A DNA stretch of 64,000 nt from Desulfosarcina sp. BuS5 (GTDB lineage: Bacteria > Desulfobacterota > Desulfobacteria > Desulfobacterales > BuS5): positions 3,656,501-3,720,500 of the forward strand of contig NZ_CP087952.1 of the NCBI RefSeq assembly GCF_028752835.1, in the 5' to 3' direction. The translations under genes were made by a program, and so were the position numbers. Positions 23,654 through 25,821 of this stretch are shown piece by piece; position 1 is the stretch's first letter; each line of letters opens with the position of its first letter. The notes beneath the pieces were generated by a model. That model had not been told where the DNA came from and ran no database searches. It saw only the letters and a list, made by a program, of their open reading frames with translations.

Positions 23654-25821
23654 TTAAATAAAATTTAAGTCTGTTTGATTTGATTTAGCCTTGTCAATTT
23701 CCAACCCCATCTCATCAGAATATCCTTGATCCGGTATAACAAATGGGTCACTGCCATAATTTAACTGGTAAAAGTCTTTAACAGAATAATATCTTACAGG
23801 TATCTCTATCATGGTCTGTTCCTTATAGTTTGCATCCTTGTATTTTTCACAGTCGGATTCAATGATGCAGTTTACGCTGTCAATTTCAAGCAGGTCGAGC
23901 AATATAGAGTTGTTTCTATGAGTTAGCAGTTCAATGTTCCATTTGCCACCTCCTTTAAATGCTACATGGGTTTCTATGCTTAAACTGGATATTGCAGGGA
24001 AAACATAATCTATTTTTTTTGATAATCAGATTCGTGAAGAATGCTATTATGTTCCAGGACTTCAAAACTATTTTTCAATATTTCCAAATCATAAGGAGCT
24101 GCTTCATTTATATCTTCCGGAGGTGCTATTAAATATATTGGCTTATAAACGCCGATAGTAGATGATGATCTTTTTCTGTTAACTCTTCCAAAACGTTGAA
24201 TTAAGGAATCAACAGGAGCTGTCTCAGTAATCATTAGATCGAAACTGATATCCAGGCTGACTTCAACAACCTGTGTGGAGACTACGATACAAGCATCCAA
24301 TGAAGTATTAAATTTACCTGTTGGCTGTCCTTTTTTATTGATACCTAAAAGTTTTTTTTCTTTTTCATACCTGTCTCCACGTTTAAACCTGCTGTGAATA
24401 AGAATGGATGGAATATCAGGAAATAAGTTTTTTACTCTGGCCAAAACACTTTGGGCTGATTTTACACGGTTAGAAATAAGCAATACTTTTTGTTTTTTTT
24501 TGACAGCATCAGCAATTATTTGATCTGAATCCTCCCATGAATTTATCTTAAAAAGTTTATGGCGATCAAATTTTTCAAGCTCTGTTTTATCCAAAGAAAC
24601 CTGCTTAACAGAATTTTCCCCAAGCAATTTTATAATTTTTTCATATAACGAAGAAGGCATGGTAGCTGTGCCGATATGGATACGACAGCCAAGATAATTT
24701 AGCACTTCCACAATTTTCAGCGCTATTGCCTTTGAGACACCTGTATAAGTATGAATTTCATCAAGAATAACATCACAACCTTTGATATCTTCAATTTGAA
24801 ACTCAAAGCCTCTTGTGGCGAATATGATAGAAGCTAATTGATATGGAGTTAGAATTTTTACACTGGAACCAATGAGTCGCTGCAAAACAATCTCTTCTTG
24901 TGATTCATCGTTAACTGCTATTTTTGAAGAAGAATGAAGCATTCGAATATCCAGTTCCGGATTTGAAGGTAACAACTCATTTTTAACTCGTTGATACATT
25001 GCATTTATTGATGCCTGAAACGGAAGTGTGTAAAATACTCGTCCCTTGCACCGCCTGAAAAGATAGTCTGTTTTTCCTGCACCCGTACATGCAACTACAA
25101 TTGTGTGTGGTTTTTCCGATATAGCTTCTTTCAATGACAAAGGATAAAATTCTGATTTTCTATTATAGAAATTCAAGACTGGTTTTTTAAATGTATTTTT
25201 TAAATAATGCTTTGTGGATTCAGACAGGGCAGAAGCAAAATAATCTGCAGCCATAAGTAAACCGCGCCATCTTGAATAGCCATAATCCTTAACTCTTGTC
25301 TCGCAGTAGGCTAACACTTTGCAATAATTATCATGAGCTTCGTCATAAGAAATGTCTCTGGTCTTAATACCAAAGGCGGAGAGTATTTTCAGGGTATCCG
25401 GTTTCCAGATATCCCAGTCTTTTATGTGGGATTCAAAAATATCACCTTCATTTTCTTCAAGATCAAGTATGCCCTTCAGCTTTTTGTCTCCTTCAATTGA
25501 TTTATGATGGGCAATTATCATTTCAATTATCTGAGGTTGGTGTTTCTCTTTGATTAGAGAAATAAAAAAGCATGAAGCAATTTCATGGCGGAATGTTGAT
25601 TGACCAGTCCTGTATTTTGATACAAGCCTTTTTTGAAAAATCGGACTTGCTTTTCCAATATCATGGAGAACAGCTCCTATTTTTGCAATTTCAACATCAA
25701 AATCCAAGCATTCAGCAAATTTTTCAATTGATAGCCTGACATGATAAAGGTGATCGTATAAGGTTGTGAACTCAGGAGCTCCTTTTGCTTTTATGTGATG
25801 ACAAATGTCCATAATCAACAT
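23654..25821 (-). pseudogene. cas3: cas3 nuclease-helicase, frameshifted in a run of eight A
   Basis: The main frame (603 aa) has the HD nuclease ligands His24, His53-Asp54, His79 and His105-His106, then helicase motifs: TGAGKT near 246-251, DEIH at 354-357, GTAT at 384-387 and QRFGRVNR near 540. It stops right after DYQKK at TAG 24010. Read one frame over, sequence continues [29 protein letters not shown] and VNCIIESDCEKY, then EIPVRYYSV and PFVIPDQGYSDEMGLE, which I recognise as the Cas3 C-terminal domain. One extra A in the A8 run (24013-24020) would restore about 720 aa, a normal Cas3 length. The start overlaps the cas5 stop. This could be a mutation, a sequencing error or slippage. Confidence 0.85.

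Follow-up and report, generated by a model that had tools for sequence, protein, structure and literature searches.

The window, as we call the whole stretch of DNA analysed here, comprises 64,000 nucleotides from Desulfosarcina sp. BuS5 and carries CRISPR interference genes, adaptation genes and a repeat array. In the nearest relative found (L003), the interference genes form an intact cas5-cas3-cas8-cas7-cas6 operon that is classified as type I-B by PADLOC. The corresponding features of the window are as follows.

25815 to 26339, minus strand: cas5b, intact, with 95% amino acid identity to its orthologue in L003 (5480-6004), which matches PADLOC Cas5 (2.6e-72).
24010 to 25821, minus strand: 5′ part of cas3, 603 codons encoding the HD nuclease and both RecA helicase domains (matches to Cas3_HD, DEAD, Cas3-like_C_2 and TIGR01587, the last at 2.1e-58).
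24013 to 24020, minus strand: run of eight A nucleotides (A8), the site of the frame break as read from the sequence; L003 has AAAAAAAG ATC there.
23654 to 24012, minus strand: Cas3 C-terminal domain (CTD), 119 codons and a stop codon read in the -1 frame, assigned through homologues and with 19 of 19 invariant residues.
23033 to 23641, minus strand: 5′ part of cas8b, cut by an insertion sequence (IS); the orthologue matches PDLC01511 Cas8b (2.6e-162).
21683 to 23038: IS in cas8b, with its transposase at 21696-22850 on the minus strand and target site duplication TAAATTTAT.
20870 to 21682, minus strand: 3′ part of cas8b.
19791 to 20849, minus strand: cas7b (Cst2/DevR-like), intact.
19475 to 19743, minus strand: 5′ part of cas6.
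18167 to 19474: IS in cas6, with its transposase at 18307-19461 on the plus strand and target site duplication ATTGAAGAA.
17629 to 18166, minus strand: 3′ part of cas6 (PF01881, 6e-30).
13185 to 13679, minus strand: cas4, intact.
12187 to 13176, minus strand: cas1, intact.
11903 to 12196, minus strand: cas2, intact.
8359 to 11766: CRISPR array with 52 identical 30-nt repeats (GTTTCAATTCCATTCTGGTCTGATTAAAAG).

The cas3 gene is interrupted by a break in its reading frame. The minus strand at this junction reads TCT GAT TAT CAA AAA AAA TAG ATT ATG TTT TCC, which confirms the initial annotation that the helicase frame ends CAA AAA AAA TAG at a run of exactly eight A nucleotides (plus-strand T8, 24013-24020; stop codon TAG at 24012-24010). 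The upstream open reading frame (24010-25821, minus strand) therefore encodes a protein of 603 amino acids, wherein the HD nuclease and SF2 helicase core of a type I-B Cas3 are present and TIGR01596 is also matched. The -1 frame is open across the junction, running from 24025 to 23654 without a stop, and lacks an independent start codon at this point. Thus, the expected domain in the other frame does exist, although the portion beyond the junction amounts to 119 residues (I604-I722 in the numbering of the fused protein, ending TDLNFI) rather than the 115 originally given.

That the small frame encodes a Cas3 C-terminal domain was borne out by tblastn, which places homologous sequence directly 3′ of the helicase codons and in the same frame at all 16 relative loci (E values from 1e-22 to 5e-71), a match that, judged by these alignments, is not due to chance. 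Searches of Pfam and NCBIfam with the CTD alone gave no match, and its identity came from homologues. The PADLOC Cas3b profile PDLC02079 matches the full-length (fused) protein over residues 8-713 (1e-300). A predicted model of this fused protein (mean pLDDT 73, with a poor prediction for residues 612-647) can be aligned to solved structures of Cas3 across residues 1-714, giving a Z score of 19.6 and an rmsd of 5.1 over 631 residues against 4q2c and a Foldseek E value of 1.6e-18 against 4qqx. The fold reference was T. fusca Cas3 (4QQW). The tblastn placement, the Cas3b profile and the structural alignment together identify the small frame as an ordinary Cas3 CTD. Indeed, the window gene resembles other type I-B Cas3 genes (PDLC02079) in its HD nuclease, two RecA domains, motif residues and downstream CTD sequence, but differs from them in that the CTD lies in another frame and is therefore missing from the primary product. 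The break itself falls within a predicted helix spanning residues 597-607.

We examined 20 distinct relatives, comprising 16 contig loci and four further genomes, and found neither a break nor an A8 run at the cas3 junction in any of them. In 15 of the 16 loci a single stop-free open reading frame of 697 to 725 codons crosses the junction, and in the remaining locus (L004) the frame is open up to the contig end. Among 389 searched genomes of the class, five besides this one contain the gene, all stop-free across the junction, and one of these five is 100% identical to L003. L003 itself, which is 94% identical to the window gene, reads CAA AAA AAG ATC GAT at this position within one 722-codon gene. 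The junction codons of L054 (81% identical) are CAA AGA AAG ATA GAC, and those of the remaining relatives are, for example, CAG GAA AAA ATT GAT. No closer relative carrying this cas3 was found inside the GTDB family. The CTD is in the same polypeptide as the helicase in every relative, and it was never found as the free-standing conserved gene that would have spoken against a broken cas3; in the window the two are separated by the stop at 24012-24010. The split state is thus confined to this genome among those searched. This distribution indicates a lineage-specific frameshift rather than a conserved slippage signal and supports the initial annotation's fallback reading of a simple mutation.

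Fifteen relatives share 19 invariant residues in the CTD; the window sequence retains every one of them and contains no other stop in this domain, which suggests that the break is young. Upstream of the CTD, two invariant residues are changed (A143 and G335). When the window is compared with L003, the helicase part has a dN/dS of 0.11 and the CTD one of 0.15 (bootstrap 0.06-0.32). With L054 as the sole outgroup, changes on the window branch number 12 nonsynonymous to 6 synonymous in the CTD versus 23 to 43 upstream (P = 0.03), but polarisation of amino acid changes with several outgroups reveals no excess of CTD changes on this branch (P = 1). We read these values as compatible with a young lesion, wherein neither relaxed nor continued selection is reliably signalled.

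Two other genes of the operon are interrupted by insertion sequences. The copies in cas8 and cas6 are 100% identical over 1308 bp, and each is flanked by a clean 9-bp target duplication. Reconstruction of the empty sites yields full-length, uninterrupted cas8 and cas6 open reading frames. The right end of the cas8 copy is itself duplicated, with 48 bp (22991-23038) lying inside the target duplication. The genome contains 48 matches to the transposase of this element, and 40 of them are full-length at ≥97%. A third copy of the family (15484-16790; 97% identical; 9-bp target duplication GGGTAAAAT) is located between the adaptation and interference genes. Genes that are interrupted in this way here and intact in relatives are what is expected of a decaying CRISPR-Cas locus. 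Natural IS transposition into cas genes is known to inactivate CRISPR-Cas (PMC10359306, Nat Commun 2023). The window resembles those cases in that insertion sequences disrupt cas genes, although defence was abolished there, whereas its loss here is inferred. It differs in that two identical copies have inserted into a type I-B operon, one in the large-subunit gene and one in cas6, and in that cas3 bears an additional one-base frameshift.

Early decay of the operon accounts for all of these lesions together. We therefore favour, as the probable explanation, a recent, lineage-specific frameshift in cas3 as part of the early pseudogenisation of a type I-B interference operon in the course of its loss. 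With two neighbouring cas genes broken by insertion sequences and the junction unbroken in 20 of 20 relatives, the break has the character of ordinary decay and not of a built-in switch.

A less likely explanation, but one that deserves to be taken seriously, is that the genome truly has nine A nucleotides and a full-length cas3, and that the missing base is a sequencing or assembly error. A one-base homopolymer indel is a classic long-read error, and the CTD frame is otherwise perfect. Long reads were perhaps used for this genome, since the assembly places the 48 transposase matches in large contigs. A coding-potential scan for gene junctions gave output that read as ordinary gene junctions and did not flag the cas3 break, and a run-centred frame test was used instead on sampled stretches totalling 438 kb of the same assembly. 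In this test, none of the 37 A/T runs of at least eight nucleotides in strongly coding sequence interrupts the reading frame, and a high homopolymer error rate is unlikely. The strict coding threshold just misses the cas3 junction; looser thresholds show it, along with one other apparent shift (L042, 15102) that proved to be a normal gene junction. Intact T8 (24352) and T9 (24493) runs are present within cas3 itself, and the adjacent cas8 and cas6 genes are truly broken by insertion sequences with target duplications. A single error at the A8 is possible, as the break is seen only in the assembled sequence.

We consider it improbable that the break is functionally recoded, such that transcriptional slippage (from A8 to A9) or -1 ribosomal frameshifting yields useful full-length Cas3 and the gene is no pseudogene. 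The form of a slippery site is present, wherein a zero-frame A AAA AAA heptamer is followed by TAG and the -1 frame leads into a CTD without a second lesion. Eight A nucleotides are also long enough for slippage, given that insertion errors grow exponentially with run length (PMC5574713) and that slippage by the host RNA polymerase is undetectable below this number (PMC6260861). By the same measure, however, A8 is the lower edge of what is detectable for a bacterial RNA polymerase (PMC6260861). Poly(A) frameshifts that are possibly corrected by transcriptional slippage have been described in Blochmannia and Buchnera (PMC3017870), and the likeness extends to a one-base indel in an A run with an otherwise intact frame. 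In those organisms the tracts are as long as 12 bp, and some of the frameshifts are retained in several populations or species, whereas the A8 described here is unique to its lineage among the genomes searched and belongs to a defence operon that is dispensable and carries further lesions. Neither the slippery site nor the split-frame arrangement is conserved in homologues, the site being absent even at 94% identity. No stem-loop is predicted downstream (fold z = +0.42, with 126 of 200 shuffled sequences folding equally well), and direct reading of the sequence upstream of the A8 reveals no Shine-Dalgarno-like stretch. Furthermore, any full-length Cas3 made by slippage would lack an intact Cascade of its own operon because cas8 and cas6 are broken. 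The programmed role first proposed for the A8 is accordingly not supported. Low-level adventitious slippage at this run is possible, and is probably without consequence.

Still more doubtful is the proposal that the A8 serves as an adventitious phase-variable or slippage switch, wherein a minority of full-length Cas3 serves a second type I-B system or priming and a throttled nuclease is kept. If full-length Cas3 were made by way of the A8, CRISPR interference would be controlled at an unusual point, a reading that the evidence does not favour. We give almost no credence to a genuine split Cas3, in which the 603-residue protein and a separately started CTD protein cooperate in trans: although some archaea have a Cas3 divided into Cas3′ and Cas3″ (PMC7074321) and in-frame TTG codons occur downstream of the break (open reading frame 23654-23902), no relative has a free-standing CTD, the break interrupts a predicted helix, and a strong GGAGG-ATG signal near 23953-23938 does not match the CTD frame. 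This last candidate start was rejected because it opens a short reading frame, and the CTD frame at this place reads GTA GCA TTT AAA GGA GGT GGC AAA TGG.

Under early decay of the operon, a net deletion of one base, either within the A-rich run or next to it, would have shifted the cas3 frame, and translation would stop in the helix that joins RecA2 to the CTD. The product would be a 603-residue Cas3 that retains the HD nuclease and helicase motifs but has no CTD. In type I-E Cas3, the CTD closes the single-stranded DNA channel and contacts Cascade, and its absence weakens Cascade binding (PMC5965380). Since the CTD performs these functions in characterised Cas3 proteins, the truncated protein is probably impaired. 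In the same operon, cas8 and cas6 are disrupted by two copies of a single insertion sequence. In type I-B systems, R-loop formation precedes the recruitment of Cas3, and PAM recognition involves the large subunit Cas8b (PMC11096372). Because both cas8 and cas6 are disrupted, no interference is expected from the window locus, irrespective of the state of Cas3. We infer a lack of activity, relaxed selection on the operon and the order of events from the lesions described above.

Elsewhere in the genome, at G000:C1:1573k-1589k (L025 7400-17300, L026 1434-2756), there is another type I-B locus, which belongs to a different subtype (Csh1/Csh2 type) and appears intact. It has its own cas3 (816 amino acids), cas8b, cas7, cas5 and cas4, together with a cas1-cas2 pair that also appears intact. 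No intact Cas6 was found anywhere in the genome, where the sole Cas6 found is the broken copy in the window, and a genome search with PF10040 yielded no second one. The second locus may have depended in trans on the Cas6 of the window. Some CRISPR function may persist there, and trans-complementation is formally possible. A third, decayed CRISPR locus is found in L061 (G000:C1:1478000-1494000), where at about 7021-8613 another cas1 fragment adjoins a copy of the same insertion sequence, with a two-repeat array remnant (GTTTTAAAGCGCGTACAGGCGCGTAATTGC) nearby. A short cas1 fragment (profile positions 222-280) at G000:C1:1927473-1927646 is possibly another remnant.

In the window, all 52 array repeats are identical and the cas4-cas1-cas2 genes are intact despite the broken interference operon. 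The locus thus offers a clear example wherein a type I interference module is lost while the array and cas1-cas2-cas4 remain intact, the damage consisting of a one-base frameshift and two insertions of an element that is present in many copies in this genome.
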